Positions 5,741 to 51,490 of a stretch of DNA of 64,000 nucleotides are shown piece by piece (within the stretch, counting starts at the first letter, position 1; each line of letters begins with the position of its first letter). The position numbers were made by a program, and so were the translations under genes. This stretch comes from Loxodes magnus. Taxonomy: Eukaryota > Ciliophora > Karyorelictea > Loxodida > Loxodidae. Below the pieces are notes generated by a model. The model worked only from the letters and a program-made list of their open reading frames with translations, did not search any database and was not told where the DNA came from. The stretch spans positions 124,001 to 188,000 of the forward strand of contig CAMPDV010000188.1 in NCBI GenBank assembly GCA_946699065.1. The letters are read 5' to 3'.

Positions 5741-6664
5741 ATAGGATAAATTAAGTTTAGCAATTTTCGAGGATTTTCACCTCTTCATGCTGGACACCAG
5801 ATTGCTCCAGTGTTAAAAATAAAGTTTTAGATGTCTCTACTCCTCCCTCCTCCCATTACTCTTGTCATTTCCGGATCTAGCCTTATTTCTAATTAAATTT
5901 TCTCTTGTAAATGTATGCTTATTCATTTAAGTATAATCTTTCTCTTATTTGTCTCTACTACATTTGTTTTTTCTTCCTCTACTGTACTTGTATGGTTCTT
6001 TATTTATTCCAGTACTACGTCTTGAAATTTTGGAATTCCTTGCAGCATCTTCATAAGTGTTCTGTCGAATTGCAGTAGTAGCATTTCTTCACTACTTTTT
6101 GGAGTTTAACCTTAGTCTTCCTATTGGTCTCTTCAATCATCATTGGATCTCCCCTTTGTTCATTTAATTTCTTTTCTAGTATTTCCAGTCTAATACTCAT
6201 ATCAGATTGTTTCTGAAGGTAATTTTAGGATTAGCTACTCTGGTCTTAAGATATGTTTCAGAAAACGCTTAGTTCTCTTTCTTAGGACATAAGTCTGGAT
6301 TATATTCCTTCCGTTAGGTTGAGTTTTTCCATCAGTTTCTCATTGTCCTTTCTCAGTTTCCTAACCTCTTCCTGGAGTCTTAGTACCACTTTGATGAGCT
6401 GTTCCATGCTTATCTGGCCAGAAGGATTGAACTTTGAGACCTCCTGGTGTAGAGCAGACTTCATCTGCTTTCTGGGCTTCTATTCTGAGGTTGGAGTTAT
6501 TTCATGTGTTGTCTTCTGAGCTTGTTTCTGTTCCTCTTCAGGTTGTTAGAATTAAGAAAAAGGTTAGGGTAAGAAGACTATCCAAGATTGGATTCAGGTT
6601 TCCTCTCCAACTTTTTGGAGATGGTGTAGAAACCTCTTTTGAATCCTTCCCTTTTTTTATTATA
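5741..6664 (-). mobile_element. Gag-only non-LTR-type element (gag1), insertion in copy A
   Basis: About 924 bp between two 19-bp target site duplications, absent from copy B. Read on the minus strand it starts near 6660 with a peptide GFKRGFYTIS, like the N-terminus of LINE ORF1 at 22222. It carries a coiled-coil plus CCHC protein and ends near 5745 after a possible stem-loop (CTGGA...TCCAG near 5780-5800). No reverse transcriptase is present, so it must depend on enzymes encoded elsewhere. Confidence 0.85.
5865..6464 (-). CDS. Gag-like protein of gag1: coiled coil plus CCHC zinc knuckle
   Basis: About 199 residues from ATG 6464 to TGA 5865-5867. Residues 1-25 carry a conserved segment (MKSALHQEVSKFNPSGQ). 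A heptad-like coiled coil starts at MEQLIKVVLRLQEEVRKLRK, and a conserved FWNIS motif follows. The zinc knuckle is CYYCNSTEHLWRCC (6045-6083), followed by the basic FQNFKTQYW segment. The Trp in FWNIS and the one in LWRC are TGA codons, so TGA is internal sense here. The protein is probably a nucleic-acid-binding chaperone or ribonucleoprotein coat of the element, by analogy with LINE ORF1 and Gag. The upstream part of the frame appears shifted, so the true N-terminus may be longer and damaged. Confidence 0.75.
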
Positions 6665-6683
6665 ATTTATAGACTAAATTATA
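6665..6683. repeat. Target site duplication, right copy
   Basis: Matches 5722-5740 exactly over 19 bp and joins directly to the sequence that is contiguous in copy B (39924 onward). Confidence 0.9.
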
Positions 6684-7163
6684 TTGGAAATTATTTACCC
6701 TTATATATGCAATCCTTTTATTAGTTATTGATAAAGCTTTTTCACTTTTATTTAAATTTAGCCAAGGCAAATGTTTGCTTATTATATAGATACAAATTAA
6801 GCTGCAAGATAATCTGACAAACTTAATTAATTTATGAAGTTAAAGTTTGCTAATAATTTATTGCTTTTATTAGTATTTCTATTTATATGCTTCTTTATCA
6901 AGGTTTTTGCTTAATAAGAGAAAACTAGTTTTGCTATTCTTCTTCCAATTTAATACACTACTTTCCCTCACTTTCAAAAGTTTTATATTTTAAATATTTA
7001 ATTTTTAGCTTAAATGAATAAACAAGAGTAAAAGTTACATCTATTTAAGACTGTGGAATAAAACTAATAAAGAAAACTTAAAATAAGAAAATAAGAAAAT
7101 TTTGGCTTTGTAACTTGATATTTAATGGTTAAATGTATTCAACTTAATTTTTCTCTTTCGTAC
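6684..7163. other. AT-rich spacer conserved between copies A and B
   Basis: About 480 bp nearly identical to 39924-40403. No gene was recognised on either strand. Confidence 0.5.
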
Positions 7164-7529
7164 TCAAAAATCAGAAAGAGTTACCATTTTGACTAAGTAT
7201 CTCCTCAAAATACTTTATCTATCTTCTAACTGGTTTATCATCATTAAAGAACTTAGTCTGTTTATTTATTCGTATCTTTGTTTCTCTTCTTCACTCAAAC
7301 TGTCTAACTGATCATAAATGAAATTATAAGTTTCTATACTTTCCTCTTCGTTTTCCTATTTAAACTCCTCTGAGTTACTTGATCCATTGTTAAGTTTAGA
7401 AGAAGCTAAATTTTGGGAGTTTTCTCTTGATTCAGTAGAATTTTTCTAAGATCCATGATTTGATTTGGAAGATTTATAAATTTAAGGCAGTTGGAAATTA
7501 GTTAGTGATAATTTAGAAGAGAAGGTCAT
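7164..7529 (-). CDS. Small acidic repeated-family protein, copy 1
   Basis: 121 residues from ATG 7529 to TGA 7164-7166. The N-terminus is MTFSSKLSLTNFQLPQIYKS. It is followed by a Ser/Asn/Lys-rich linker, an acidic block (EEFKQENEEESIETYNF) and a C-terminal helical segment YDQLDSLSEEEKQRYEQIN... ending in RRYLVKMV. Five paralogues occur in the window (also 40404, 51491, 53654, 55712). All share the core of about 90 residues while the ends differ. TAA/TAG are read as Gln at four or more places. No known domain is recognised. The charged helical composition suggests a small soluble protein; no function is proposed. The TGA after SDF might instead be Trp, so the C-terminus is uncertain. Confidence 0.7.
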
Positions 7530-7724
7530 AGCTTAGAATGAATGAATTATAAAATAAAATAGAAAATAATTATAAAATAATTATAAAAGAATGCTAAGTT
7601 TATCTTTTAAACTAATTACAATACAATTAACAAACTATAAATTATTAAATAATAATATTATTTTAGGCTTTTTATTTTCTCTACTAGAAATTTATTTTTC
7701 ATTAATATGCTCAAATTATCAAAA

Positions 7725-8530
7725 TAGTAGAAGGCCTTCATAGAGCTTTTTATGTAGATCTATAAAAGTTGCAACTAACACCATCCTATGAAATCAAGAC
7801 TAGGAACTGGACACTAATAGAATGCCTATAGGACATCCATCTCTTAAATCTTGAAGAAAGGCTAAGAACTTTATTCTCTCTAAATTCTCTGATTTCACTT
7901 CAGAATAGTAGATAAACTACGAATAGCTTATTAAAGTAGTGCTGAACCTTCAAGGAAGAGGCTAAATCAAAGAAAATATTAAAAATTCTAATGATTAAAC
8001 TAGAAATAATAGAATAAATAGAATAAAGCCTTTCTTTAACATATAATAGGACTAGAAAAATTAATCTTAGAATTAGCAATAAAAGCAGAAAGAATTTATC
8101 AGCAAAGAGTTGAAATAATATCAAATTAACGAAAAATGAAAAATTAATTGATCAAAAAGATAAAAAAATCGATATAATGATATAAGAGAAAAATAAGATC
8201 CGACTACCAAGTCCAATTAGAAACTGAAAAAAAGCTATTTAATGCTTTTCAGAAGTACATCTTTGAAGAAGATGCAAGCAATTTATTAATTTAAAATGAA
8301 AATACTTGAAATATCAAAGATTGACACGAAAAATGAGAAGAATGAAGTAAATGAAACTAAAAAAAAGAGAAATACTATATTGTAATGTACTTTGACAAAT
8401 TTACTAGAAAAAAAGAAGACGGGTACTGACAGAGAAATGGATGATCTTAAGAGGTATACACAAGGTAGGGAAGGAGAACATTTAAACTTTTATTTTTAGC
8501 CTATTAAGCAGTTTTGAGGTCAGCAGGGAA
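7725..8530 (+). mobile_element. Decayed gag-only element, present in both A and B
   Basis: This stretch keeps the skeleton of the gag-only family: a segment resembling LIKVVLNLQEEVKRLK (about 7905-7990) and, near 8370-8400, a remnant in which knuckle cysteines are lost (KYYIVMYFDKF-like reading). The same decayed copy is at 40965-41800, so it was inserted and degraded before the tandem duplication. Boundaries are approximate. Confidence 0.55.
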
Positions 8531-8886
8531 GAATTTATAAATTTTCCAAGAACATAAAACATTTAAATATATATCTATTATCTAATTTTCTTAAAAGTTT
8601 AAATTTTAATTTAGAGAGTAAAGAAACACTTTGAATGATTAAAAATTTAACTAAAATAAGGTAATAATTATGAAAAAATACAACTTCAGAATTTTTCTTT
8701 AGATTTGATTTTTTTTAAATTAAAAAATCTAATGAGAAAACATAAAGATATAATAGAATATTTTGATAAAGTATATTTAAATTAATAGCTAATCTTTATA
8801 AAATAATTAATATAATAAATTTCTCTAGTTTTATTTTAGCTTTTAGTGTTATATCCTTTTTATATTATTAAATTATAAAATATAAA

Positions 8887-9621
8887 ATGGCACCTAAGAA
8901 ATAATAGACCTCTATTAACGAATACTTGAAAAAATAAGAATAACCTAATTTAATTGAAGAATAGCCTTAATAAGATAAAGATTAATAATCTAAGGAATCC
9001 TTTGCATAATCAGTTCAGCAAAGGATATCAAATATCCAATATGACTTGAAAAAGCAAAGATAAAGAATAGAAAATTTAGAAAACTTACTAGAAAAATTAA
9101 TGGAATAATTAAACCTATAATTCCCATCCATAGATGAATCATTAAATAAAATCTAATCGTAAATAGTAATTAAATTGGAATAAATTGATAAATAATTTAA
9201 CGAAGTCCCTCAAATGTTCCAATTTCATTTTTCTTAAATTGAATATCAAATAAAGCAACTTTAAGAAAAACAAGAATAATAACAAGTAATAATTTAAAAA
9301 TTATAAGATTAATAAGATTAATAATCAAATATCTCAATGGAAATCGAATCGGAATTCTAATAATAAGAAATAAATAAGATCAATTATTATCGCAAAAAGA
9401 TTCGGTGCTATTTATGCTAGAAAAATAATTGCTGGAAGAAACAAGAAATTGAAAAAATTAACAAGAAATTGAAAAAATTAACAAGTAATAAATATTAGAC
9501 TAACTTTTCAGAATATGACCAACAAGAACAGGATAAGTATACAGAAAGAAATTCTACAACTCAAGAAACAACGAGTTTTATAAAAATGGAAGAAGAAACT
9601 ATAACGATAATTAGTGGATGA
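8887..9621 (+). CDS. Gag-like protein, second subfamily (gag2a)
   Basis: 244 residues from ATG 8887 to TGA 9619-9621. It starts MAPKKQQTSINEYLKKQEQ, then has a long coiled coil (roughly residues 45-150, e.g. IENLENLLEKLMEQL and IEYQIKQLQEKQEQQQ), then a short cysteine motif RCYLCQKNNCWKK that is an altered knuckle. Related copies are at 20053-20865 and 48371-49051. The 3' flank (about 9630-9665) has the same ATTAATG...GTCCTAC layout as the stem-loop at the ends of the other two copies. It probably encodes the RNA-binding coat of a non-autonomous retroelement. No reverse transcriptase follows it. Confidence 0.65.
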
Positions 9622-9724
9622 GGGAGAGACAAGGATGGCGGATTAATGTAGTCCTACGCAGTCCTTTAGTTCAGGAAAGAGCAGGAACAAAAACAGGTGA
9701 ACCCTGGAGCTCTTTTCTAAAACT

Positions 9725-10976
9725 ATAAACTTAATTTTATCCTTTTTTAAACCAAAACAAACATTCTATAAAACAAATTAGGTATAATTTATTTAAGATT
9801 TATTTAGGAATATTTAAATAGTTACAATAATTTTGCTTTCAATTAATAGCTTTACTAGAAAAGATAGATAATATGAAGATAAAAAGTTACTATTTATAAT
9901 GTAAATTTCGTTTTAGATATTTAATGAAGAATATAAAAATAAAACAGTCTTTGTAGTTAAGAACGAAGCTTTAGCAATAATTAAATTAATATAGATAATC
10001 TTTTATTTGATGCTTACTAAAAGCAACTATTAATCTATTTGTATTATTGATTATTTTAATTATTATTTTATAATTAATCTCTATTATCTTTTGTATTTAA
10101 TTCTCTTTTTATGCTTTCTTCTCTATTATAACTTTTATATACAAATGCTTTTAATTGTTAGCAATAATATACTACTAAAGATAAACATTTATGAAATAGA
10201 GGCCAAGAAAATTTAGACAAACTAAACGAAATTAATAAATTATTAGGAAATTATAAGCAAATATACACTGAAAATAATAATTTAATACTCATAATAAGAG
10301 TAAAGTGCTAGCTAAAAATAATTAAAATCATCAAATTTACAAAAAATTAAAAGTAAACATATTATTTGCTTATTATAGAAAGTTTATAGATAGGATATTT
10401 TAAGCTGTTTCTTTACTTTAGAACTTTATTACATACTCATAAATTTAAAGAAAATATGGTTAAAAAGTTTTATTATATAGTTAAATATATTTTTAATTTA
10501 GAACTAAATTAATTTTAGCGTGTAATAATTATACAATAAATAGCACAGATTTAGTATGGTATAAAAGCATTATCATTTGAGTTAACAAAAAGAAAACACA
10601 GCTTAGATATTTTTGTTTTATTATAAAATAAAATTTTTAATTTAAAAATGAAATATTTAAAGTTTAATATCAAAAGTATCTCATTTTGAATAGAGTAAAT
10701 ATTTCCTCTACTTCATTTTTTTAATCTTATTTTTTATTTTATTTTATTTTATCTCGATTTTATATCTTTTTTTATCGATTCTTTTTTATTCCTTCTATTT
10801 TACTTCTATAGCTCTTTCTTTTTTCTATTTTATAAAAATTTTATAATATTCATTTGATTTTTTATATTCTTTTACAGAATTAAAATTCTCCTTTTTCAGG
10901 CTAAAATATTATGTTTATCAGATTAGGTTCCAATCCTATGAAAAATTATTTATAAAACTGCTTAAATAATCAATAT
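9725..10976. other. AT-rich stretch without recognised gene
   Basis: About 1.25 kb of very AT-rich DNA inside the A-specific segment, downstream of the minus-strand zinc-finger gene. I see no motif, hairpin tail or coherent reading frame. Confidence 0.4.
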
Positions 10977-12323: not shown

Positions 12324-12740
12324 TTATGAAATGTTGATTTCTAAGTATTCCTTAGAATGATCTTCTAAGCATCTCTATTTGGTTTAACTTATTTTGTTCT
12401 AAGTTTTCACTACGGTATAGGTATACATTATAAGAACTTATAAAGAAATGTGAATTTAAGAAGAATTATAATGGAATAATTTAAGCTTATTTTATAAAAA
12501 GTTAAATAGAAGCTTACTTTATATTATAATTGGCACTTTATAAAATAAATTCTTGTCGATACTATAAATTTTTAAGTTGTTTTGTAATTTACTATTTAAT
12601 TTTTTAATTATATTGTATATTTTTATTTTAAATGATATTATGCTACTCAGAAGATAGGATTTACTATTGGTGGTAGATTGATAAAAGTCTAAAAGAAACG
12701 AATAATAATTTTTTAAAACTGAAAGATATTTATTTAATTT
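12324..12740. other. Spacer, mostly duplicated flank
   Basis: From about 12546 this matches B 42150-42350. The first 220 bp belong to the A-specific segment. No gene was seen. Confidence 0.45.
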
Positions 12741-13580
12741 ATTTAATATTGCTTAACAGCAGAATCATATCCGCCGTTCAAATAATGGGTCTAAAAGTTT
12801 AGTCCTTCTCTACCAATGGCTTTGAGTTTCTCTTTCTTGTATTTCCTGCCCCATAGCTGATTATATTACAGTAATTCTACGCTTGAAAATTCTCCCTTCT
12901 TGATCACATCATAGCCTCTGAGCTCTTTGTATCTCTCTAAGTCAGTATTATCTTTTAAATTATTGAAATTATCTACATTTTTTTTGCAGATGATAACTAC
13001 TTTTACAAAAGTAACATCGCTTTTTAGGTTTTCAGTTCTATTATTATGTTACTATCGTCCTTTAGTAAATCTTTTCATTTTCAATGTCCATTCTATTATG
13101 CTAGGGAATCAGCTGGCTCTATTGGCTTTATTGGCTCTATATTATGTTTTCAAGGAATTAATTTTAGTCCTAAATCTTCTTTACTTAGGAGTTCGTCTAA
13201 CTAAGTTGATCTTTTTAATAATTTCAGAGAGTAGTGAGTTCTCTTTCCTAATTGGCCATTCTAAGGTCTAGAGTATCCTAAAGCCCGTGCTAAATCTGCT
13301 CAGTCAGCTTTTCATTTTCCTTTCGTAATTTTCAAACCTCTTCCTGGAGGTTTAACACCGCCTTGACGAGCTAATCCATGCTCATCTGACCAGTAGGGTT
13401 AAATTCGGAGACCTCCTGATGTAGGATAGACTTGACCTACTTCCTCGGTTTCTCTTCCGAGGTGGGAGTTGTCGCAGTATGGGTGGTTTTTGAAGGTTTA
13501 TTTGTTTCCTAACGCTATTGTTAGGCGCCAGTCTCCTAATTCTTTGGAGCTGGAAAGAATCCAATTCGGAGGTTCGACAT
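12741..13580 (-). mobile_element. Gag-only element gag3, insertion in copy A
   Basis: Copy B reads straight through the site (about 42350), while A has about 840 bp extra flanked by a tatttaattt repeat at 12731-12740 and 13582-13591. The element reads on the minus strand. Its 5' end is almost the ATG of its protein, and the 3' end near 12745-12780 can fold as AACGGC...GCTGTT. It is compact: a single ORF fills nearly the whole insertion. Confidence 0.8.
12765..13580 (-). CDS. Gag-like protein of gag3, apparently intact
   Basis: 271 residues from ATG 13580 to TGA 12765-12767. The order is an N-terminal MSNLRIGFFPAPK, a Gln/Thr-rich linker, the conserved EEKPRKQVKSILHQEV and FNPTGQMSMDQL blocks, a coiled coil (LVKAVLNLQEEVWKLRK), and the CCHC knuckle CYFCKSSYHLQKKC (12975-13016). 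This is followed by RQFQQFKRQYW. The Trp codons in EEVWKLR, QYW and RLW are TGA, whereas paralogues use TGG in the QYW/NYW motif. It is likely the RNA-binding structural protein of the element. It is the best preserved member with a plausible start at the element edge. Confidence 0.8.
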
Positions 13581-14140
13581 TTTATTTAATTTGAATATAT
13601 AATATTATAACTCTTAATAAAAAATGAAAATAATGACAAACATAAGCATATTACTGGATTAACTAAGTTATTTATTTTTCCTAGTTTATTAGTGAAAGGT
13701 GAGCTAATTTACTAATTTAGATTTCTTTTCCAAAAATGTTTAACATAGGTTTAAATTAGATTTATTATCCTTTAGTTTAAAAAATCACGGAATGGAAAAA
13801 ACCAAAGGAATATAAACCTTAATTCTAACCTAATAGATAAATATTTAGTCTCAGTTAACTAACAAGAACAAGAATTCCAAAAAGATAAATTTACTCCTGT
13901 TAAGGATTGGGAAATAATGAATTTCCTAACAAATTTAAAAAGTTTGAGAAACCCCATGAGCAAAACTAGCTTATTTCTTAATTGAGAAATTAATACAAAA
14001 ATTTAAAACCTAAAAGCAGAAAACTAGAATCTTAAGTTTATTTTGTAAGATGAAAAAAGGAAGATAAAGGTTAGGTTAGTTAAATTTTGTTTTAAATTGA
14101 AGCCTTAACTTCCAAATTTGTATTAATATATAATTAAATT
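13581..14140. other. Duplicated flank, then A-specific AT-rich sequence
   Basis: 13590-13780 matches B 42345-42540. From about 13785 the sequence is A-specific up to about 15050. No gene is recognised before the hairpin-tailed element at 14140. Confidence 0.4.
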
Positions 14141-14430: not shown

Positions 14431-14439
14431 TTTTTTTAT

Positions 14440-16092: not shown

Positions 16093-17560
16093 ATTTAATT
16101 ATTTAATTTATTAATTTTAAAATAATTATAAATTCCTTTATACTGATAGGTTATACCCTTACTATGAATAAATATTCAATTCTTTATATCTTAAGAGTTT
16201 TATTACAATTATAAGAATAATTTATAAAATAAACTTTGAAAGTTCATTATTTTTATCAAATTATGCCTTTATATTAAGTAAAAAAGTATTGAAGTTTAGC
16301 TAAGGTATTACATTGAATAGACTCTAGTGTATTAATAGGATTATAAAAATACTTAATTTTGCTTATTGTAAAAATAAATAAATGTTTCTAAAGAAAATAT
16401 AAAAAACTTAAAATATTTATTTTAATATAAATTAATTAATTTTTATTTAAATTATTAATTTTTAATTGTCTATATTATATCAGGATGATATGTATTAAAC
16501 AAGATTATTATTTATAAATATACGATAAAGAAAAAATCATATCCTAAAGATAACTATCTCATTCTACTGACTTTCATTTTTTATAAATTATAAAGTTAAT
16601 TTAGTTTATTTTCGCATGACATTAATTCTATTATATTTTTCACTTAAATAATAAAAAATTATTGCAAAAGTTAAAAAATAAAAAATGATATTGCAGAGCA
16701 CATAGCATCACGATGGTATATCTTTAATAAAGTTTTTTTTAAGTTTATAAAAAGTTATACATTCAATAATACAATAAACAGTGCTAGACATTATAAAATT
16801 AAGTCTTATTTTTTAGTTAAGAACTAGAGAATCAATAACAATAAAATTCTGAACAGATTAGGATATTACAAGCACAGCAGTAATAAAAAGAATAAATCCT
16901 GTAAGGATTATTAACATAAAAATAAAATGAAATTGAAAGCATAACAAGCTTTTATACTAAGCAACTATAAAAATATTAAAAATATATTTTGAAATGTAAA
17001 TATAAACAGAAACAAATTAAACCAAAATTAATTAAACTTAAACAGATGTTATAGGATAAGCAAATTCAAGTAAAATTCCAGTGTTTAGATATATAATTTA
17101 ACACAATAAAAGTTACCCAATAAGACCAATTCTGCCAAGTGAATTTGTAAGAAAAAAATTATATAAAACTCTAGTAATCCTATCATTAGTTAAATATAGA
17201 TTTCATATGTAACAATTAAAAATAAGAGGAAAATCTGAGAAAATAATAAGAAACTAATAGAATGTCAATGAAAGGATTATTTAGCCTTAAAGCTAAAACT
17301 TAATCAAAAGATTAATAGAACTAGACAAATTTCAATAAAATTGAAAACTAAAAATGTTCTGTTGCTAAATCAAACCCTCTTAAAAGAAAATAGAAAGAAG
17401 ATTATTTTAAATTCCAGTAGCTAAACGTAGTATTAAATATAGAGATTAAAAAGAAAGTGAAAAATAATGCAATTCTTAAATTTTAAATCGTCTTTACTCA
17501 AGGAATTTATATTATAGGGTTCTTGAATAAAAACACAGTATGAAATGAGTAATATTTAAG
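16093..17560. other. End of duplication A, then AT-rich DNA
   Basis: Homology with B (43584-44243) stops at about 16757, where B continues into an inverted SINE. 16758-17560 is AT-rich. It may contain the decayed ORF1 of the LINE that follows, but I could not identify a knuckle or RRM motif. Confidence 0.4.
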
Positions 17561-20035
17561 GCAGGTATGTGACAATTAATTAAGAATTAACCTTTGAAAC
17601 TATTGATAATATTAAAAAAGCCAAATATTTGTGGATCAAAAGCTGTTATAAAAATATAATAAATAAGTAATTTTTATAATTATCTAATTCTTTCATCAGC
17701 ATCCAGAATATGGTAAAAAATTTGTAAATGTTGATTATGATTTACAAGGGAATAAAAATATTTGCATTTACGAAAATGGACTTCCAGCTGGATCAAAAGA
17801 AAGTAATAAAGATAATAATTAATATTAATATAGAACTCGAATCAAGATTGGACACGTTAACATTAATGGAATAGCAGGAAAACAGTTAATGATTGAAGAA
17901 TTTATTAAAAATAATGACATAGACATCTTCTCAATTAATGAAACATGACAAAAGTAAGATTTTCCTCCTATACTAATAAAGAATATAAGACATACTTTAG
18001 AAATGTAGATAAAGGAGGAAGTGTAAGCTTGATTATTAGAGATGAAATAAATAGTACTTAATCTAGAGTAAATATAGAAACCTAAAATCGATTTGTTTCA
18101 GTCAAAATGGAAAGTATATTAATCACATCTTGCTATATTCCAGACAATAATAAAAGTAGTCTTATTAAAGATTAAGCTTATGATTATATTAATACATATA
18201 TTGGATAATTTCCAAACAATCCTCATATATTGATAGGAGACTTCAATGCTCTATTATAAAATTACGGAAATAATACTTAAAACGATTATGACAACACATC
18301 TAGATTTTAAGAATTCTTGCAATAAAACGATCTTCAAATAGTTAATAATACGATTAGTAACACATGCATACACAAAGGAACGGGAAAATTGTACTGTAAT
18401 GACTATATTTTAATTAGTAGTCATTTAAATAATAATTAATTTAGAAATTTTTAGGTTCACAATGGCTGCTTAAAAGCTGATCACATTCCAATTACATTTA
18501 ACTTTTTGTTTAATACAAAATATTATGATAATGAAAAAATAATTTAGAGAAAATATAAAATTAATCGTTTGTAGATCCAATTGATAGATAAAGATATTAA
18601 CAATCATTTATACAAACTTGTAATTAATTATTTCAAATAGATAGAAATAATTTAGAGGAATAGTACATGTACATTAGCAGAAATATTAAAAAAAACGCAG
18701 ATTCAGTACTAGGATCATTTATTCCTGATCCTAAATACAACAAACTTCCTCAAGATCTTCCAAGAAAGTATATAGATGGGAAAAGAGCTAACTAAGAGTA
18801 TAAAGAAACTCAAATTTATTTTGGAAGAATTAATTAAAGAGTCCTTAATCTTCAGAAATCAGCTAATAAACTTTGAAATAAATACAAATATCATCTATGA
18901 AAATGGTTAAAAGATAAAACAAAGAAGAAATTTCTAAATCTTAACGAAGAACAGAAAATTATGCTTTCACAGGCGAAAAAGATACTTAACCCAAAAATAA
19001 GAAACAAAATGAACTTTAATTAAGAGCTTAAAAACCAATTCGTTGATTCATGAGAGAACTTTGTTTTTAACAAACATTAAAATCTTACTTAATAGTAACT
19101 TGACAATAGTAACAAAAATTTTAATCTAGTTTATTGAAATATTAAAGAAATTTAAGAGTAAATATCTTCCTATTTACAAGAATTCCAACTCTTCACGATT
19201 TAAGAAATTTAAGAAATTTAAGAAATTATTGAATAAATCCATAATGGAAAAGCAGCTGATCCAGACGACATAAAGGGAGAATTATTGAAGTATGGAGGTT
19301 ATTCTTACTTTGATTCTTCATTCTTTCTCGAATAATATGCTGAGGTTTGGTAGAATACCTGAAGAACTTAATACGTCAATCATTATTCCTATATTTAAAA
19401 AAGGAAGCAAAGATAGCTGGAAAAATTGGAGACCTATTTCTTTAATGAACTCTATACTAAAAATATATGATAAAGCTTTAACTAAAAGGTTATATGATTA
19501 AATATATAAAAAAAACTTAATTCATAAAAGCTAGATGGGATTTATGAAATGGAAATTAACTGCTATGCAAATTTGGACAATATAGTAAATAATAGAATCC
19601 TATCGCAAATAAGCAAAAGGGAAGACAAAACTCCTTGCCACACTAATAGATGTAGAGAAAATGTTTGATACTATAGAAAGATGATTGCTTTTCGTTTAAC
19701 TCAGGAGAATCAAGCTACCTTTAGGACTTTTAAATGCCCTTGAATCTTTCTATAAAAACATAAATTCCTCCTTTCTTATAGATTGAACCTTATCTAGGAG
19801 GATAAAATAAATAATGGAGTTATGTAAGGTAGCTCACGAGATCCAGTGCTTGCTTTGCTGTACTTTGATATTGTAATCAGATAATTAGAAAGTAAAAGTA
19901 ACATAATAGGATTCAAATATAATACTATTAGCAGAAGTTGCGATTGTAGAATATGGGCAGATGCGTTAATTCTCCTATCCAAAACTGAAAAGACCATGTA
20001 GATTTAAAAAAAGTTAAAAGTTAAAAAGCTTTGTT
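17560..20035 (+). pseudogene. LINE-1 fragment: broken endonuclease and reverse transcriptase
   Basis: APE-type endonuclease motifs occur in order: NINGIAG, SINETW (W = TGA 17946-17948), IGDFNALL (about 18237), NDYILISS (about 18400) and ADHIPITF (about 18480). Reverse transcriptase motifs follow: SWKNWRPISLMN (about 19420), LIDVEKMFDTI (motif A, about 19648), GVMQGSS (motif B) and WADALILLS (motif C, 19954-19965). Frameshifts lie near 17965, in an A-run near 18690 and near 19290. The second catalytic Asp of motif C is Ala, so the enzyme is dead. The 3' end is missing; a gag2 element abuts it at about 20040. The first ~130 bp may be the end of ORF1. Confidence 0.8.
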
Positions 20036-20052
20036 AAAGCCTTAGTAGTTAA

Positions 20053-20865
20053 TCATCTGACCTATTCTATCAGCTTATTACCATTAGTTTGCCATAAATT
20101 CCTACTAGTCTTAGTGAGGCGGTGTAGCATTTCATTAGCGCACCATCTTTTAATATTCTGAATAGTCTTCATCTTGCATGTAGCGTTCCTAATTATTTCT
20201 CCAAGGATTAAGATTTGAATTAAAGAATTTTTTCTATAAATGTTTCCGCTTTATGTTGGATATATCCTAAATAGTTTTCTAAAAATATCTTATTTATTCT
20301 TTCTTTAAATTTCGCTTAGTTAGTAGCAGTATTTTCATTGGTGTTATTTATTGCACGCGTAGCATTTTATTCTTCTTTTAAACTATTATACCTGTAACAC
20401 TTATTTAATTTAAATTTACTACTTATTTTAAATAAACGTTTACTGTTTATTTTAATTTGAGGCTTCATTTTCTATTTCCATAGGATCTTATTGATTCTGT
20501 TAAATTGAAAATGGCGTTACCTGAATTTATTATTAAATTAAAAAACTTATTTGCTACAGTTTGTTTTCTATTTTTTATGATGAATAATATTTTTTCTCAA
20601 GCAAGGACGTTATTAATTTTTCTAATTTTTCAACTTTATCAGAGGTATCTATTTTTAACATAAACTCTTTTAAAAACTTAGATAATATTTCTATTTGAGT
20701 TTGTGTCGGAAGTTTTTTTAATTCTGGATTTCCAAGTGGTTAATGTTCGTCATATCAATCATACTTATCACTTTCACTCATTGTAATTATTTAGTTTTTT
20801 TATTTTTTAGAGAATTTTCCTGTTTAAATGTTTTGTTCAAAGTTCTCTTATTTCTTAGAAGCCAT
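20053..20865 (-). CDS. Gag-like protein, second subfamily (gag2c)
   Basis: 270 residues from ATG 20865 to TGA 20053-20055. It begins MASKKQENFEQNIQTGKF. The middle is helical (QIEILSKFLKEF and KLEKLITSLLEKK), with a Gln-rich stretch after it. The zinc knuckle is CYACNKQHQWKYC, a C-x2-C-x3-H-x4-C variant, followed by a basic tail. It is very similar to 48371-49051 on the other strand. The 3' flank ends in a TTTAACTTTTAACTTT tail. At the homologue of this TGA, the 48 kb copy has TGG in shifted context, so termination here is uncertain. Internal Trp codons (YDWYDE, HQWKY) are TGA. Confidence 0.7.
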
Positions 20866-20879
20866 TTTATATTTGAATC

Positions 20880-21085: not shown

Positions 21086-22065
21086 TAAAAAAAATTGTTG
21101 AAGGTTTCAAGTCAGGCTTCTATACCACCTCTTCCTAAGCCAAAAAGGAAGGGAGGAAGCAAGAAATCAAATCTTTATAATCTTAACAATCTTCTCTATC
21201 ACAACCTTAACCAACACTTAACTAACAACTTGGAATCTAACAAAACGAAAGAAAGCCAACCTTGAAGAATATACTCACGGAAACTCCAACCTCAAGCGAG
21301 AAACCGAGGAAACGGATGAAGTCTGTTCTCCACCAGGAGGTATCAGAGTTCAACCCTTCTGGCTAGACGAACATGGAGTAGCTCATCAAAGTGGTACTGA
21401 ACCTCCAGGAAGAGGTCAAGAGATTGAAGAATGACAATGATATGCTGATGGCAAAGCTAGACCTAGCAGAAGAAATTGAATCAAGACTTATTTCCTAGGA
21501 AAGAGATCTTAACGCCTTTTGGAATATCTCGCAAAGTCAGACTAACGAATCCTAAAATTAGTTTTAGAAACAGACTGAACTGAATAACAGACTCGAAAAA
21601 GTAGAAGAGAAATTGTAAACTTTTAAGAAAGATTAAAGCGAAACTGGAGCTATACAAATGGAAATCGAAGCCTAGAAAGAGCAAACAAATCAAAGAAAAT
21701 AATTCAAAATAAAAAAGAAATGCTTCTACTGTGGAAGCGTATGACATTTTTATCGGAAGTGTTAGAAATTCTAATAGAAATAAAGAAACTATTGGATAAA
21801 AGAACAACAAAAGAAGAAAAAGGAAGAAGCAAGAATGAATAGAATGTATTGCAACCCGGAAGGTTCAATACACAAGATTAAGATGGAACCATATCAAGTA
21901 AAAGGAAAGAAAACCTGGAGAAACCCGAGTTCCCAATCTCGCTAAAATTGGACGCCAAAACATTTATATTTAACAGCAGGGAGCCCGAACTCCTGTCCTC
22001 CTGACGGGGCTGGAAATTCCTAAAACGGAAAACTCAAAATTAATATTATTATTATTATAAAAAAG
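21085..22065 (+). mobile_element. Gag-only element gag4, with empty site at 46.2 kb
   Basis: About 980 bp flanked by ctataaaaaagcttat and tataaaaaagagcttat. The homologous stretch at about 46230-46250 has the site once and uninterrupted. The element begins with the FKSGFYTTSS-type peptide and ends with a stem-loop (CAGGGAG...CTCCTG, about 21985-22005) and an (ATT)n tail. GC content is much higher than the surroundings. Confidence 0.85.
21316..22050 (+). CDS. Gag-like protein of gag4
   Basis: The conserved core starts at ATG 21316 (MKSVLHQEVSEFNPSGQ). It continues with MEQLIKVVLNLQEEVKRLKN (coiled coil), AFWNIS (W = TGG, 21520-21522) and a second coil (LNNRLEKVEEKLQTFKK). The CCHC knuckle CFYCGSVWHFYRKC begins at 21721, then KFQQKQRNYWIKEQQKKK. 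The frame is open upstream into TPTSSEKPRKR and as far as FKSGFYTTSS at about 21100, but the position matching the LINE ATG reads ATT. No in-frame TGA follows the knuckle before the element ends, so the stop is not identified. It is probably an RNA-binding element protein. Confidence 0.75.
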
Positions 22066-22215
22066 AGCTTATTATAAAAATACAATTTTTATAAGAAACT
22101 AGGGCAGAATTTACTAAAAATTTAAGCAAACTCTATAAATGTATCTCTCTAATAGATAATATAATAAACAAATAATTATTTTTTATTTTTAGATGATAGA
22201 AATTATTATATATAT
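22066..22215. other. Flank shared with 46260-46390
   Basis: It resumes the match to C' after gag4 and is interrupted again where the LINE begins. Confidence 0.55.
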
Positions 22216-22221
22216 TAAAAA

Positions 22222-23367
22222 ATGGTTAGCTTCAAGAAGGGTTTTTATACTACCTCCTCAGAGTAGGAGAGAAAACCTGAAGCAATTTCTTTTACCACGT
22301 CTTTGCTTTAATTATTCCAACCTTCTTTATTATGCATGGAAACCAGACTAATAATGCAAGACCTCAGACTACGCAGGACCAAACTAACTGACCGAACGAA
22401 CACGAAATAATAGAACGAATAATAGAAAAAAAATAGCAATATACCCATGATTGGTCGAACTGTACTAAAAGGAGGTGCACAAAATAAGAAAGGAATGTGG
22501 CAAAAAAAGAAAACAACCTAAGTAATAATTTAACAAAATAATGAACAACTCATTTCAGCCAACGTCCCTGAAGAATAAATGTAATGGGTCTACTAAAATG
22601 CCTATGATGATTTATCAGAAATGGTGGCCGCAATTTACTTTAACCATTAATTGGAAAACACTGATTTAGTAGAGAAAAAGGCCAAAGACTAAGAAGTTAT
22701 ACAAGTGTTTAGAAATCAAATATGGAAGGATTACGGACAAGCAGTGGCGAAGTTCATAGTGAAATAAAACGGAATTGTATACGTGGTATTTAACAATGAA
22801 GAAAGATGCTAACATTTCACTTAATTCAGGGAATGAACGTTCAAAGGAGTTAGAATTCCTATCTAAGCTAGAAACTAATTGGAATATTTTGACATTCATA
22901 ACTACCCAATTTACTTCACAATCAACGAATACTCAAATATGAAGGAAGTAATGGAAATAATAAGATAATATGGAAAATCAAGAGGAGAGATATAGCATAC
23001 ATATCCAAACACAACAATGCTAACAGGGAGCAGTGTAGTCTACCTAGATTTAAAGGATGTAGACGAAGCAAAAAGGATACCAGAAGTAATAGATTTGAAT
23101 GGAAACAAAATGAGAATATAACACCCAGTAAATTTTATCTGCTACCTATGTAAAGTGAAAGGGCACACAGACAAGCAATGCAGAAGGGTAGAAGCAGCAA
23201 AAAGGAAAAAGCTACATACAAGAGAATTAGAGATGCTTGAAGGAGAAGTTATTTTAACAATAAACAAACCAGATTTTGAAGCAAATCAAGCAAATAAGAG
23301 GATAATTGGAGAAGAAGAATAAATGAATATAGAGGGATCAAGGGAAGAAGAGAAGGAAATAAAATGA
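22222..23367 (+). CDS. LINE-2 ORF1: RNA-binding protein with CCHC knuckle
   Basis: 381 residues from ATG 22222 to TGA 23365-23367. The N-terminus MVSFKKGFYTTSSEQERKPE is shared with gag-only elements. The middle domain has beta-alpha alternation resembling an RRM (GIVYVVFNNEERCQHF, FKGVRIPIQAR, SSVVYLDLKDVDEAK). The knuckle CYLCKVKGHTDKQC (about 23138-23179) is a canonical C-x2-C-x4-H-x4-C, followed by a basic stretch. The RRM plus knuckle layout is typical of ORF1 proteins of several LINE clades, which bind element RNA. The stop overlaps the ORF2 start as ATGA, which suggests coupled translation. Confidence 0.85.
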
Positions 23368-26200: not shown

Positions 26201-26472
26201 AAAGGAATAGGAAAAGTCTATAGAGCAGGAAAAGGATAATTTTTATGAGTTTATAAAAGCTGATTTAAAAAAGAATTAGAAACGAAAAATAACAAAATAT
26301 GTAAGAAAAAATAAAGGAAGCTTGCAACAAAGATAAAAAAACATAGATAGATATAAGAAAGAAGAAAAAAAGATAATATAGAGGAAAACGACGAAGATAT
26401 GTAATTAATAAGATAAGAATTTCTATTACCTGAAGGTTTACTTGAAGAAACTGGCATATATTGAAATATGGA

Positions 26473-26512
26473 AAGAGCTGCGCACCAACGAGGTGCTGCG
26501 CGCTCTATAATC
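26473..26512 (+). other. 3' terminal stem-loop of LINE-2
   Basis: GAGCTGCGCACC-AACGA-GGTGCTGCGCGCTC can pair over most of its length with two single-base bulges. SINE 1, SINE 2 and the 14.4 kb fragment end in the same structure, so it is probably the reverse transcriptase entry signal. Confidence 0.75.
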
Positions 26513-26545
26513 AAATTTATAATAATAATAATAATAATATTCTTA
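26513..26545. repeat. (AAT)n between two converging element tails
   Basis: ATAATAATAATAATAATA joins the plus-strand LINE tail to the (ATT)n tail of a minus-strand gag element, giving a tail-to-tail arrangement. Confidence 0.7.
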
Positions 26546-44243: not shown

Positions 44244-44249
44244 GTACTA

Positions 44250-44954: not shown

Positions 44955-45745
44955 AAGAATTCTTTTCCACACCAAGGAATTAGATGCCCGAAACGAAGCA
45001 GAACTATGAGAAATACAAAAAGCTGCAGAAAATTACGAAGCTATAATGACTAAAACCTAGGAGAAGAAACCGAGGAAGTAAGCGAAGTCCGCTTTACACC
45101 AGGAGATCTTAGAGTTAAATTCTTCTGGTCAGATGAGCATGTAATAGCTCATAAAAATGGTTCTAAGTCTTTAAAAGAGGCTAAGAAGCTCCATGAGGAG
45201 AACACGCGGCTATCATATAACGAACTTTAAAATACATTAAACTACAGAATGGCTAATTAGGAGAGAGATCGATGTTCTATGAAAATATTAACAATAATAA
45301 ACAGTTATACCAAATTTTAGATGTAATGAATACAATGCTATATTACATAATTAGAAATTAAAATTTAAAGCTAACAAATTGAACAAATTAAAATGGAACT
45401 TAACTAAAACTGGCAAAATGAAACTTTAAGAAATGGGAGGAAACAAGATAAACATGAAAATAGCTAGGCAGACTTTATTTAAAAAGAAATGATACTTCTG
45501 TTGATAACTAAATCAATTATACAAGTAGTTTAAGAAATTTTAATAATTCAAGAAAAAATACTGGATTGAGGGAAAAAGAAAGAAAAATGTTATTCTACTA
45601 CTGGGAAATGGAATTTATAAGAGAAAAGGGAATCAAAATATATGAAACTGATTTTAACAAGTTCTATAGGAAAAAATCGACAAGGATTCAATCAAATGGA
45701 AGAGAGATAAAACTTAAAAACTTATTTTAAGCGGCAGATGTGAAA
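44955..45745 (+). mobile_element. Decayed gag-only element (gag5)
   Basis: It keeps the family blocks GEETEEVSEVRFTPGDL/KPRK..KSALHQEIL and a LIKMVLSL-like coil (about 45060-45190). The knuckle has become KKWYFCWQLNQLYKQF (about 45486-45530), losing two zinc ligands. The EKKYWIEGKRK tail is recognisable. It is non-functional. Confidence 0.6.
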
Positions 45746-46069
45746 TAGGTTGCTAAACAATTTTAAATAAATAAATTATAATATTAAGTATTATTTGAAC
45801 TAATTTTACCTAGATTATAGCGAAATATAATTAAAAACAACAATTTTCTTAAAATTACAAAATATAGAGAAGTAGAACACGGCACTATATTATAAGATAA
45901 ATTAGACTTGTAAATAAATTTATGTTATTTGTGAAATAATTAGAATACTTAAAAAATGTCATAAATCATTGAAAAAAAAAAACATAAATGGAATTTTATA
46001 TATAAAACTTATTAAAGGAAGAAATCATTGAATCAGATTTGAATTAAAAAATAACTATCATTCTTATTT
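45746..46069. other. AT-rich spacer
   Basis: Nothing recognised. Confidence 0.4.
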
Positions 46070-46399
46070 ATGAAAAAACTAGTGGTTGATTGAACTTATT
46101 TTATCAGAATAAAAATAAAGAATATATTTTAAAATAATTATTATATAATAAAAAGAAAAATAATCACTTAAAATACTAAAATAAGTCTTTTTTTATTGAA
46201 AAAGCACTTAAAAGAAATATATATTTTTACTCCTATAAAAAAGAGCTTTATTATAAAAATACAATTTTCTTAAGAAACTAGGTAGAATTAAAAATTTAAG
46301 CAAACTCTATAAAATGTATCTATCTAATCTATAATATAATAAATAAATAAATAAATAAATAAATTGTTTAATTTTTAGATGGTAGAAATTATTATATAA
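46070..46399. other. Segment C' (compact counterpart of 20880-22215)
   Basis: It contains the uninterrupted insertion site of gag4 (about 46230-46250) and continues directly into SINE 2, whereas the C locus carries gag4, LINE-2, another gag element and SINE 1b in between. Confidence 0.65.
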
Positions 46400-46786
46400 T
46401 ATAATAAAATGGAAGTCGGTTGCGGTCAGGAGAAATAGTAGTTAATCTGGTGTAGTTATATAGAGTAATCTCCGCTATATACCACCACGGAAAAGTGAGG
46501 ACAAGCTCGGAAGAGATAAGCCTAACTTGCCCAAGGGTTCTCTCTAGCAGTTTGAACGTTTGACTGACGATTCTATTAAAGTCTTAATAACTAATTATTA
46601 TATGGATCTTATTTAAGAAGACTGGAGCATTTGATTCAAGATTCAAGAATAATTTTTAATAAGTAAATTTTCCATTTAGAGAAGCTAACGTGTCTCATTG
46701 GATTACTAGAATTTTAAAAGATGTATGAGAACACTTTTTTTGATAATAAATATTAATATTGAAAGAGTTGCTACGTGCTCTATAAT
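46400..46786 (+). mobile_element. SINE family 2, copy b
   Basis: Matches 27735-28133 over its length. The 3' stem-loop has an internal deletion (GAAAGAGTTGCTACGTGCTC, 46761-46780), so the tail signal is broken. Confidence 0.65.
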
Positions 46787-48370
46787 AATCTTTATTTATT
46801 AATCATGACGAAAAATTATGAAATAAATTTTAAATATATTAACCGTAAATGATGAAAGTGATTTATTAACTTGGATGCTTTTTAAATTTTGATTTAAATT
46901 TTAAACTTTAGTAAAAACAGATAAAACTAATAATAATAATTAATTATAGTGATTTCCCCTTTAATAAGTGCATCACTGTATTAAAGTTTAATTTTTTTGT
47001 TAAATCTTGAATTCAAGTCTTCGTCTGATCGTATTTTTTAAAAACATATCTATTTTTACTGATTTATTCTTTTTTATTATTGGAAACTAACTTCAGTAAA
47101 GTTCCCTGCCTAGCTTTTATTAGTTTTTTCTTTATTGTTGTATTGCTATGTTTCTTAGACCTTCACTCTCTCTATAAATTTTCTTTGTGTAAAATATTCC
47201 ATTGGAGTAAGATATTACTGAATGATTGTCGTAAATTAAATTTTCTTATTATTATTTTGATTTAAAATATCTGCAATATTTTATGTTTTGACGAAATCTC
47301 CTACAATATCAGCATAACTTTTTCTTTAAAATAAATAATTTATTCTGGTTTATCTTTTGGTTCTACATCCATAGAATCTTTCATCGTCATTTTTTAAAGA
47401 AATATGCTTTCCGTAATTTCTATGAATTAATAAATTTTTTTTCTAAATGTGTTATTCATATATTTGCTGAATATTATTTTTCATTTTTTATCCTTAAGTG
47501 TAAAAAATCAGGTATGCATTTTTTCCTTTGCATTCTTGTATGTGTCTCAAAAATCTCAAAATTTTCGTCTTGTATATATTTAATTATTTAATTATTTAAT
47601 TTAGATTTTATTTTCGTAATTTAGTTGAGATTAAGCCTTTTTAGAAAGGACTTTTTGCAATAAACTGTCCATTTTTTTATTAATATTAAAACAATTTAAT
47701 TTGCAAACTTTTAATTTGCAAAAGAGAATAGATTTTAATTAGAATTTAAAAGAAATTTAAAGATTAAATATACTATTTTTCTAATAAATTTTCTTTAATT
47801 CTTCCTTTATCTTTTAAATCAATTTAAAAAATTACTTATTTTTCAATTATTGAATAAGATGAAAAGCTTTTAGCTCTCTCTTTAATAAAAGTATAAATAA
47901 AATGCAAAAAACTTTATGTATAAATAAAATTATTTTATTTATAATTATACTTTTAATATTTTTTTTATATAAAACCCCAAATTTTTTACTTCAAATTTTG
48001 ATTGAATTTTTAAATAAAAAATTATTTAATAACTTAAAAAAATAAGGCATTCTTTTCTTTGAAAGTAATAAAGCATGACATAGAATTCATATTAGTGCTT
48101 CATAACTAAAATTTTTTTAATTTTTACTCACTTTTCATTAGATTTTATTAATAAATTTTAGAAAATTGCTCATAAAGATAAAATTTAATTAATAGTTTAA
48201 AAGAATATTATACTCTTTCGCTTAAATTAATTCTTATGTTTTTTATCTATTCTGGTTTCGTTTTATTTTTAACTTTATAATCAGAAATCCCCCACTTAAA
48301 AGCTAAAAAAGATTAAATATGTGCTAAATAAAGTAAAATTATGAAATTTTAATATACATATATATATAAA
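46787..48370. other. Duplicated flank then AT-rich DNA
   Basis: 46787-47260 matches 28134-28600. 47260-48370 is AT-rich with no gene recognised on either strand. Confidence 0.45.
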
Positions 48371-49051
48371 ATGGCTTCTAAGAAATAACAGAACTTTGAA
48401 CAAAACATTTAAACAGGAAAATTCTCTAAAAAATAAAAAAACGAAATAATTACAATGAATGAAAGTGAGAAATATGATTGATATAATGAACATTAACCAC
48501 TTGGAAATCCAGAATTAAAAAAACTTCCGACACAAACTCAAATAGAAATATTATCTAAGTAATTAAAAGAGTTTATGTTTAAAAATAGATACCTCACTGA
48601 TAAAGTAGGAAAATTAGAAAAATTAATAACGTCTTTACTTGAGAAACAATATTAATCATCATAAGAAATAGAAAACAAACTGGAACAAAGAATTCTTTAA
48701 ATTTAATAATAAACTCAGGTAACGCCATTTTCAATTTAACAGAATCAATAAGATCCTATGGAAATAGAAAATGAAGCCTCAAATTAAAATAAACAGTAAA
48801 CGTTTATTTAAAATAAGTAGTAAATTTAAATTAAATAAGTGTTACAGGAATAATAGTTTAAAAGAAGAATAAAATGCTACGTGTGCAATAAATAACACCA
48901 ATGAAAATACTGATACTAACTAAGCGAAATTTAAAGAAAGAATAAATAAGATATTTTTAGAAAACTATTTAGGATATATCCAACATAAAGCGGAAACATT
49001 TAGAAAAAAATTCTTTAATTCAAATCTTAATCCTTGGAGAAATAATTATGA
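48371..49051 (+). CDS. Gag-like protein, second subfamily (gag2b)
   Basis: 226 residues from ATG 48371 to TGA 49049-49051. It is almost the same protein as gag2c: MASKKQQNFEQNIQTGKF, KYDWYNEHQPLGNPELKKL, KLEKLITSLLEKQ, a Gln-rich stretch and the knuckle CYVCNKQHQWKYW, in which the last Cys is replaced by Trp. Near 49000 an A-run differs by one base from gag2c and shifts the frame, so the two C-termini differ. The element continues to about 49225 with a GGTGCATTAATGAAGTGC stem-loop and a TTTAACTTTAACTTT tail. Confidence 0.65.
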
Positions 49052-49224
49052 ACGCTACATGCAAGACCAAAACTATTCCGAATATTAAAGGATGGTGCAT
49101 TAATGAAGTGCTACACCGCCTAACTAAGCCTAGTAGAAATTCAAGACAAACTAATAGAGACAAGCTGATAGAATAGGTCAGATGGCTGACTACTAAGGCT
49201 TTAACAAAGCTTTTTAAATTTAAC

Positions 49225-51490
49225 TTTAACTTTATATTATAAAATAATAAAATTAATGTTCATAATAGTTAATTATTTAAAAAATTAAATATTTGTATCT
49301 ATTATTGTATATTATTATGATTTTTCTAATTTTATTAAAATTTATTATTTTTAAATTAATTTAGCGTCAAATAGAATTTTTTCGTTTTAAATATATTTTT
49401 AATTTCGCTTTTGTTTAATATTAAAATTGTTTACTTGTTGCTAGTAGATTTTATATTAAAGTCTCAAATGTTTAAACTTTTATAATCTTAAATATAAAAT
49501 TAATTTTATTTTATTTTAGAATTAAAATATGAAATAATTTATAAGGATTTTTGACTAATATTTTGATTTAAAAATTTGTATAAACCTTCAAATTAGTAAA
49601 ATTATTTAATTTAGGGAAATATTTATTAAAAATGACTATTTAAAAGTAAAATAAATAATATAGGAATATTTTTATCCAAATAGAACAATCTCTTTTCTCT
49701 CAGCAGAAACCTTTGATATCATTTATTTTTTAATCCCACTTGATTAAGAAAATTTTGCTTTAATAGTTCAATTTTATTGAGAGATTTAAATTTTACTAGA
49801 GCTAGGACATTAATATAAAATTTAGAGTTGAAATACAAATTCAAGAAATTAAAATTTATTATATAAAGAACCTAGTTTAAATGATTTTAATAACTTAATT
49901 AGAATACATTTAAGTATTTAAATTTACTTTTTTATTTATTCTAAAAAAACTTAAAATCCATTAGAGAAAAATAATAATATTTATTCTTATGATTCAATTT
50001 ATTATAAATAAAATAATATAATTATTTTTCATAAAGGACTTAACTTAGTGCTATTAACTGACTAATTAATTATATCTTAAAATTAATTTTAATATTAAGT
50101 TAACTTAGAAATTATTTTATATAAATATTATTCTTTAAACATATTAAACAAAAATAAGACTAAAACGAGTAATATAATCCTAAAATTTAAAAATTGTCGT
50201 AAAGATATTATCTTTAAAGCTTTCTTTAAAACTAATATTTTTATTTGTCCATTTTATTGTAAATTTAGTTGGCTTTTAAGATTGTTCATTTTAGCTTCAT
50301 TTTACTCTTTTTGATTAAATAGATATTTCTTTTATTGGGTTATATTTTGATAATAATTAAATTTATTTATTAAACTAAGTATTCAATTTATCTAAAAGTA
50401 AAAATAAAACTCTTAATAATTAATTTATCCTTATTAGTATGATTTTTCTATATTAAACTTCCAAAAAATATTTTAAACACGCTCAACAAAACTTTCTTTT
50501 ATAAATTTTAACTAAACGCTATTTATTCTAAAAATAGAATATTCAACTTTAAATAATTTCCTTTAATTTCTCTCTTAATGCAAATAATTAATATTTTTAT
50601 TTATTCTACTGTAAAAATAAATAAAAAAATATAAACTAAATTTAATTGCTTAAACTAAATAAAAGTTTTAAAATTTATATAAAGGATAACTAAAAAGCAT
50701 GTATTTAAGATTAAAATATAAAAAGAGAAATAAATAATAGTAAAAATTATATTTAGATATTCATTTAAGTAAACTATAATACAAATAATAGATAGTAGTT
50801 TTTAGTGTGTTTCAAATAAAAGATTATCACTATTATTTATTACTAGTTAAAAATTGAACTAAACTATAACATTATTTTACTCTTATATCTTAACATTTTC
50901 TAAAAATTAAAAGCACATGATTGATATTATAATTAATATCTTCTATATATTAAGTTATTCATTCTATCTATTCTTTTCTAATAAAGAGTATTATTTAAAA
51001 GAAAAATTACTAAAATTATATATAACATTCCAAATAAATTATTAAATAAGTTAAACAAAATTAGGTACATAGAATTCTAATTTTGATAAAAATAAATAAA
51101 TGATATAATAATCACTAAATGATAAAATTAAATTAGAGAAATTTAATTTATTATTATTTTATAAAATTGTCTATAAAACTAAAATTATTTATATAAATAT
51201 AAATATAAATTAGACTTTTGTTTTATTATTTATATTTTTTAATTTAAGACAAGCAAAACAATCAAATAAAAAACTATCTTGAAAATTCTGAAACTTAAAG
51301 TATCCATGATATTTACTTTATTATAGATATAATAAAATATTTGCAAGTATTTCTTAGCTCTTTAGAATAATAAACTTTAGGAACTTTAAGCAAATTAAAT
51401 TAAAAAATTAAGAAAAGCAAAATTAAAATTTTATTTCTCTTAGAATAATTAGTTTCAAAATAAATTATTTTAATTTTAGTTTTAGTTTTA
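49225..51490. other. Very AT-rich stretch, nothing recognised
   Basis: About 2.3 kb of low-complexity A/T-rich DNA. I see no coherent protein, hairpin tail or repeat shared with the rest of the window. Confidence 0.4.

Follow-up and report, generated by a model that had tools for sequence, protein, structure and literature searches.

Short units encoding only a gag-like protein in Loxodes magnus are probably non-autonomous retroelements

Background

How might a mobile element spread if it encodes one gag-like protein and no reverse transcriptase (RT)? This question is raised by a stretch of 64,000 nucleotides from the karyorelictean ciliate Loxodes magnus (GenBank assembly GCA_946699065.1, contig CAMPDV010000188.1, positions 124,001 to 188,000 of the forward strand, i.e. 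124-188 kb of a 517-kb contig), hereafter called the window, in which short gag units (gag1, gag2a, gag2b, gag2c, gag3 and gag4) recur without RT. We consider it quite probable that these are non-autonomous, protein-coding non-long terminal repeat (non-LTR) retroelements of about 0.8-1.0 kb, mobilised with the enzyme of a long interspersed nuclear element (LINE). The evidence supports a protein-coding non-autonomous element in the case of gag2 and makes one plausible in gag1 and gag3.

Results

Gag units in the window

The units were located by local profile scans in the six frames of the window, with TGA read as tryptophan. The profiles were partly built from the window's own gag2b, gag2c, gag3, gag4 and gag1, and the matches of these five copies are therefore by construction. 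The gag2-type profile matched at 5904-6575 (-), 12882-13559 (-), 21100-21876 (+) and 45016-45582 (+), the gag3-type profile at 48371-49000 (+) and 20239-20865 (-), and the gag1 profile at 8887-9618 (+). Independent of profile building are the matches of gag2a (E = 9.9e-64), of the fragment at 45.0 kb and of a remnant at 7837-8094 with its duplicate. One shuffled window, used as a control, gave no match for any of the three gag profiles. The units and fragments are as follows:

5741..6664, minus strand: gag2a unit, an insertion of ~0.92 kb, identified by profile, absence from a duplicate and an exact 19-nt end repeat
7837..8094, plus strand: weak gag2 remnant, with a duplicate at 41077-41199 (profile E = 1.6e-4 and 2.4e-5)
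8871..9735, plus strand: gag1 unit, ~865 bp, interrupting a repeat, with an end near-repeat
12751..13582, minus strand: gag2b unit, with an empty site in a duplicate; its own copy is within the profile
20010..20872, minus strand: gag4 unit (gag3 family), 93.6% identical to 49227-48364, with gaps that break the frame
21096..22036, plus strand: gag2c unit, an insertion relative to 46037-46412
45016..45582, plus strand: gag2 fragment (gag2 profile, E = 5.1e-23)
48364..49227, plus strand: gag3 unit, open reading frame (ORF) from 48371, by comparison with gag4 and locus L072

A preliminary description of the window had counted at least eight gag-only copies; six gag units hold up, together with one fragment (45.0-45.6 kb) and one weak remnant (7.8/41.1 kb), while the gag profiles gave no match to the copies claimed at 14.4 and 26.5 kb. 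Each unit has one coding frame. The gag1 ORF (8887-9618) has 244 codons without an internal TGA, and that of gag2b (12768-13580) has 271 codons and keeps the knuckle CX2CX4HX4C. The gag2a frame shifts near the 5' end of the unit, and no in-frame ATG was seen at the start of the gag2c coding region (21103-21876). The gag3 unit had been described as intact, but it is broken: relative to L072 (whose own knuckle has a C to Y change) 2 nt are missing near ORF nt 630, where the frame is lost, and the last knuckle cysteine is W. No match to the ORF2 pieces of the window's two LINEs, LINE-A and LINE-B, lies inside the gag units of the window or of the loci sampled across the genome. The description of protein-coding, RT-less elements with defined ends is borne out.

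Units across the genome

Unit lengths and ends outside the window were taken from sampled loci (L009 being the window's gag2b and L039 its gag4), and the copy counts are unverified first-look candidates. For gag3, 29 of 29 other loci match locus L040 over a single stretch of ~870-920 bp with flanks that do not match, and common flanks were found for L048/L068 and for L052/L060/L061. All 30 gag2b loci carry the unit, at ~0.9 kb in independent loci, though several of the loci go back to one insertion copied by segmental duplication, and L016 and L019 are shorter at the 5' end. In a distant group, gag2' (L069-L074), a unit of ~1.0 kb is present in five of six loci, and the match of L070 covers ~0.87 kb. 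The copies in the sampled loci are dispersed, lying inside contigs among unrelated sequence, and are of like length and without RT. Candidates number 6774 for gag3 (150/150 scored matched, these 150 best-scoring ones over at least 203 of 206 residues), 5067 for gag2 (142 scored, 145 matches, many of the lower-ranked ones partial) and 3368 for gag1 (150/150 scored matched).

One gag3 copy, in L058, adjoins a stretch (645-1480), possibly a further gag family, that starts with MAPKKQ, is coil-like in part and contains what looks like a damaged knuckle. The final ~300 bp of this stretch are also present in eight other loci, three of which represent one duplicated region.

Empty sites and target-site duplications

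Several units of the window have identifiable empty counterparts. The gag2a unit is missing from a 98%-identical duplicate (1-5740 corresponds to 34216-39923, and 6665-8873 to 39905-42143), the empty site of gag2b lies in the duplicate at 42335-42358, and gag2c is an insertion relative to the 46037-46412 repeat. Likewise, gag1 interrupts a repeat whose unbroken counterpart, ~70% identical, is at 51400-50718. For gag3 and gag4 the window showed no empty site.

An exact 19-nt repeat flanks gag2a and a near-repeat, ATCCTTTTT, occurs at both ends of gag1, while the end repeats of the window's gag2b and gag2c (the latter diverged, ~27 nt) score no higher than the control. This control consisted of mismatched flanks, and flanks could be cut for 13 of 14 gag2b and 15 of 30 gag3 loci. 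Target-site duplications (TSDs) of variable length are evident in gag2b, where 10 of 13 loci score above the control's 95th percentile; in these ten the terminal repeats are 14-28 nt long, which fits target-primed reverse transcription. Near-repeats of 14-23 nt were also present at five of five gag2' loci, a set that had no control of its own.

RNA structures at the ends of gag2

Both ends of gag2 carry conserved RNA structures. The 5' alignment, A1, contains 13 ends from LINE-A, LINE-A-like and gag2 types, some of them nearly alike, and the 3' hairpin was followed in alignment A3:

6591..6645, minus strand: 5' RNA structure of gag2a (row gag2a_w of A1)
21104..21167, plus strand: 5' RNA structure of gag2c (row gag2c_w of A1)
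22229..22283, plus strand: 5' RNA structure of LINE-A, in common with gag2 (row LINEA_w of A1)
12756..12777, minus strand: 3' terminal hairpin of gag2b (row L009 of A3)

The 5' fold consists of three helices with 16 pairs, seven of which show changes on both sides; 95.1% of cells are paired compared with 48-65% in slid versions, and double-change cells number 21 compared with 6.2 in shuffles. As the fold sits at the start of the coding region, conservation there could partly be that of the protein. The 3' hairpin of gag2b and gag2' has 8 bp, with double changes in 6/8 pairs and 96.2% of cells paired (32-61% in slid versions), and is followed by a common AACAAT-type tail. Scanning the window with Rfam, with E values up to 1 allowed, gave no match; the 5' fold is thus not recognised as a known ribozyme family.

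Selection on the gag2 protein

The loci L069-L074 came from a gag2b query in the wrong frame and were matched by DNA likeness; hence they were not picked for conservation of the true protein. In the six pairs between L069/L074 and L071/L072/L073 (DNA 70-73% identical), the proportion of nonsynonymous differences (pN) is 0.18-0.20 and that of synonymous differences (pS) 0.65-0.71, with omega at 0.11-0.14 in frame and 0.95-1.32 in shifted frames. All 28 gag2-type pairs comprise 15 with a defined in-frame omega (0.11-0.50) and 13 that are saturated, and the higher values occur within subfamilies and for g2a versus g2c. These comparisons indicate that the gag2 protein was under strong purifying selection between the two subfamilies. 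Moreover, the collinearity of the two subfamilies, which lack RT, extends for ~1,000 bp and takes in the 3' end; one gag-only layout is therefore older than their split, and the elements on which selection acted were accordingly most likely gag-only. For gag3, a pN/pS of 0.37 was rejected as proof of selection, since the copies had been ranked by protein score and were biased.

Gag proteins and their relationships

The preliminary description ascribed a coiled coil and a CCHC knuckle to all copies. By motif reading, the knuckle is CX2CX4HX4C in gag2 and the shorter CX2CX3HX4C in gag3/4, and that of gag1 is without the canonical H and the last C. A coiled coil is likely, judging from heptad patterns that 5-12 of 300 shuffles equalled. 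In Pfam, no family was over the cut-off for any gag protein scanned, and zf-CCHC did not match. Comparison of gag2 with gag4 by hhalign aligned ~30 knuckle columns (probability 53%, E = 1.3e-4), while gag1 aligns with gag4 (E = 1e-4) over a stretch comprising MEIE and the knuckle, and gag1 and gag3 have ~32 bp at the 5' end in common. The families thus look modular, with two N-terminal modules joined to a similar knuckle region.

LINE-A and LINE-B

At least two RT-bearing LINEs are present in the window:

22214..26540, plus strand: LINE-A, with ORF1 at 22222-23364 (one knuckle motif) and ORF2 from ~23334 (APE endonuclease and RT)
17000..19990, plus strand: LINE-B, with APE endonuclease and RT, approximate ends (Pfam RVT_1, E = 1.1e-12; Exo_endo_phos_2, E = 3.7e-11)

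LINE-A has frame changes near 24.81 and 25.02 kb and ends in a 3' hairpin and an AAT-type tail. It matches Exo_endo_phos_2 (E = 3e-12), and one piece matches RVT_1 (E = 2.4e-6) at 27.8 bits, below the cut-off of 29.6. The LINE-B group is large, with 6,901 first-look candidates (not verified copies) in the genome. In one copy, L083, the region upstream of RT has long coil-like stretches by eye, with no knuckle motif and no gag-profile match.

A gag-type ORF1 was not seen in either LINE of the window. The gag2 profile matches the N-terminus of LINE-A ORF1 (E = 7.2e-7) and, weakly, its knuckle (E = 0.007); by hhalign, 29 N-terminal columns align, 62% identical, and homology over the full length of gag2 was found neither there nor in L083. 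The gag1 and gag3 profiles matched neither LINE-A nor LINE-B in the window. Searches of PDB sequences gave no hit at E 0.1 with the gag2 profile and three unconvincing chains (E = 0.18-0.75) with LINE-A ORF1. Because the covarying 5' RNA fold and the 29 N-terminal residues are held in common, the helper of gag2 would most likely be LINE-A or a relative.

In L071 the gag2' unit is followed, after 1.3 kb, by an RT, which was rejected as an attached ORF2 because it lies beyond the shared 3' end of the unit and resembles the window's LINE-B. In L048 and L068 (~1142-1253) a LINE-A-like 5' end starts ~25 nt past the 3' end of gag3 on the same strand, an arrangement that looks like one duplicated insertion. 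LINE-A matches recur at exact 5,094-bp steps on contig C967 (26018, 31112, 36206, 41300 and 46394) and gag1 matches at steps of ~6.0 and ~16.2 kb (contigs C208, C197 and C425); these would be tandem arrays carrying retroelements, either real or assembly-made.

Genetic code and other features of the window

The window, which is probably macronuclear DNA, was read with TAA and TAG as glutamine and TGA as tryptophan or stop. The longest open frame has 510 codons under codon table 6; tables 1, 4 and 10 were dropped, as their longest frames have 127, 166 and 166 codons, respectively. L. magnus is reported to use code 27, in which UGA is the sole stop and also tryptophan (PMC11441545), and reading TGA as W gives sensible motifs, for instance GDWNTH in the LINE endonuclease. 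A BLAST search of the window against itself revealed a segmental duplication (1-16,766 versus 34,216-44,256), and ARAGORN found no genes in the window. A ~300-bp repeat occurs in at least five places at 87-99% identity (7164-7463, 40404-40703 and 55712-56011; inverted at ~51537-51963 and 53676-53998), and its frame gives an acidic protein (NEEESIETYNFIYDQLDSLSEEEKQRYEQI) that is not a gag. Long frames at 536-1492 (duplicated), 34751-35707 and ~58.4-63.4 kb encode N/S/Q-rich, repeat-like protein and are perhaps host genes for surface-type proteins.

Discussion

How the gag units may be mobilised

According to the reading that we favour, a gag unit would be transcribed into an RNA with its start near the start codon, a single coding region for a coiled-coil and knuckle protein (an RNA binder like ORF1p or Gag) and, at its end, a hairpin with a short A/T-rich tail. 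The protein would coat its own RNA in cis and aid it in competing for the RT and endonuclease of a co-resident LINE, whose enzyme would prime on the gag tail at a nicked target; in gag2, the 5' fold and the 3' hairpin-tail may be read by the proteins of the LINE. We infer transcription, RNA binding, cis action, use of the LINE-A enzyme and a like mode of working in gag1 and gag3, and likewise the borrowing of RT. The units seem to have long persisted as parasites, or else partners, of full LINEs.

Several observations weigh against this reading. Standard pair types are no more frequent than in shuffles, in the 5' fold and the 3' hairpin alike, and the 3' ends of gag2 and LINE-A differ, LINE-A having another hairpin and its AAT-type tail. 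Young copies appear to decay neutrally: 15 independent gag2b insertions gave an in-frame pN/pS of 0.74 (0.62 and 0.74 off frame), and for shared gag2b variants the ratio is 1.0. Segmental duplicates, in which selection is not expected, gave 0.52 in frame versus 0.66 and 0.88, so the measure is too noisy for ratios near 0.5 to be telling. The values for L073, L022 and gag4, which are divergent gag3-type copies (0.50-0.61 in frame versus 0.56-1.18 off frame), fall within this noise. Eight young gag3 copies (six picked by 3' untranslated region (UTR), plus gag3 and L072) gave 0.62 in frame versus 0.66 and 0.81; purifying selection, for which the preliminary description had proposed a test, is seen between the gag2 subfamilies and is not shown for gag3. 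An unbroken ORF was found in none of eight gag3 copies fetched by 3' UTR, which look like six insertions, and gag3 TSDs are not evident (3 of 15 loci above the control, two of the three being one insertion). The neutral decay of young copies could reflect a small number of active masters that leave many dead copies.

Alternative origins

The alternative that survives best, which we regard as unlikely, is a repeated origin like that of HAL1, in which every gag family arose separately, by internal deletion, from a LINE of its own, the selection dating from the LINE parent. HAL1s are reported to have arisen independently several times from L1 (PMC5753468), gag2 has its 5' end in common with LINE-A, and LINE sequences are numerous and diverse, our ORF1 comparison covering LINE-A and LINE-B. 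However, the gag2 subfamilies are collinear through the 3' hairpin, so that an identical junction would be needed twice; LINE-A ORF1 aligns to gag2 over the 29 N-terminal columns only, and neither the LINEs of the window nor L083 carry a match to the gag1 or gag3 profile.

It is far less probable that the units are retrogenes, i.e. processed pseudogenes copied by LINEs from a host coiled-coil/knuckle gene. The near absence of a 5' leader and the ORF filling the unit resemble a short mRNA, and the young copies are dead, but a host mRNA accounts poorly for a 5' RNA fold in common with a LINE, a conserved 3' hairpin, several related subfamilies and thousands of first-look candidates. That the units are 5' or random LINE fragments whose ORF2 was lost by truncation or decay, which the preliminary description named as its own refutation, can hardly be true even though LINE copies are reported to be mostly incomplete in this genome (PMC11441545) and LINE-A and gag2 have a common 5' end, since independent copies agree in length and at both ends and, in gag2, TSDs enclose the whole unit and the 3' hairpin covaries.

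Relation to known systems

Non-autonomous, protein-coding retroelements have precedents. The mammalian HAL1 (half-L1) encodes only ORF1p and likely uses the L1 machinery (PMC5753468, PMC4161310), and the gag units resemble it in being non-LTR elements with an ORF1p-like protein alone. Whereas HAL1 derives from L1, the overlap of gag2 with LINE-A consists of the 5' RNA fold, the 29 N-terminal residues and the weak knuckle match; furthermore, gag2 has its own 3' hairpin and a protein selected between subfamilies at pS near 0.7. HeT-A of Drosophila also encodes a Gag-like protein alone (PMC3776773). It inserts only at chromosome ends, in tandem, while the gag units are dispersed inside contigs and gag2 makes TSDs. 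LINE ORF1 proteins are described with a coiled coil in type II and a CCHC knuckle in type I (PMC4120745); the gag proteins combine coil and knuckle in one protein, with no RNA recognition motif detected and no Pfam family over the cut-off.

The Loxodes LINEs described in PMC11441545 are 5-6 kb long and have RT, unlike the gag units, and LINE-A or LINE-B may be among them; the terms gag, ORF1, SINE, zinc knuckle and non-autonomous do not occur in the main text of that paper. No report of gag-only elements in ciliates surfaced in our literature searches, as judged by titles and abstract openings. The suggestion of an undescribed class of element therefore needs narrowing: a protein-coding non-autonomous element is supported for gag2, but gag-only elements are a kind already known from HAL1 and HeT-A, of which those described here are a variant.

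Implications

Transposons are reportedly not purged from the somatic genome of Loxodes. Short interspersed nuclear elements (SINEs) show that parasites of LINEs need no protein; where a small parasite has retained an RNA-binding-type protein under selection for a long evolutionary time, it follows that packaging its own RNA repays the cost. How the machinery of a LINE picks out its own RNA, and the RNA of its parasites, may lie in the common covarying 5' fold, a concrete candidate that can be tested. More tentatively, and with considerable doubt on our part, the units may form a guild of ancient gag-only lineages, older than the subfamily split, that are maintained through selection on a protein working on their own RNA and whose 5' RNA badge is held in common with a helper LINE. 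If this is true, gag-type packaging and the copying enzyme may ride on separate elements as a split-genome system, and even LINEs such as LINE-B, of which the sampled copy is without a knuckle ORF1, may benefit from the gag units.

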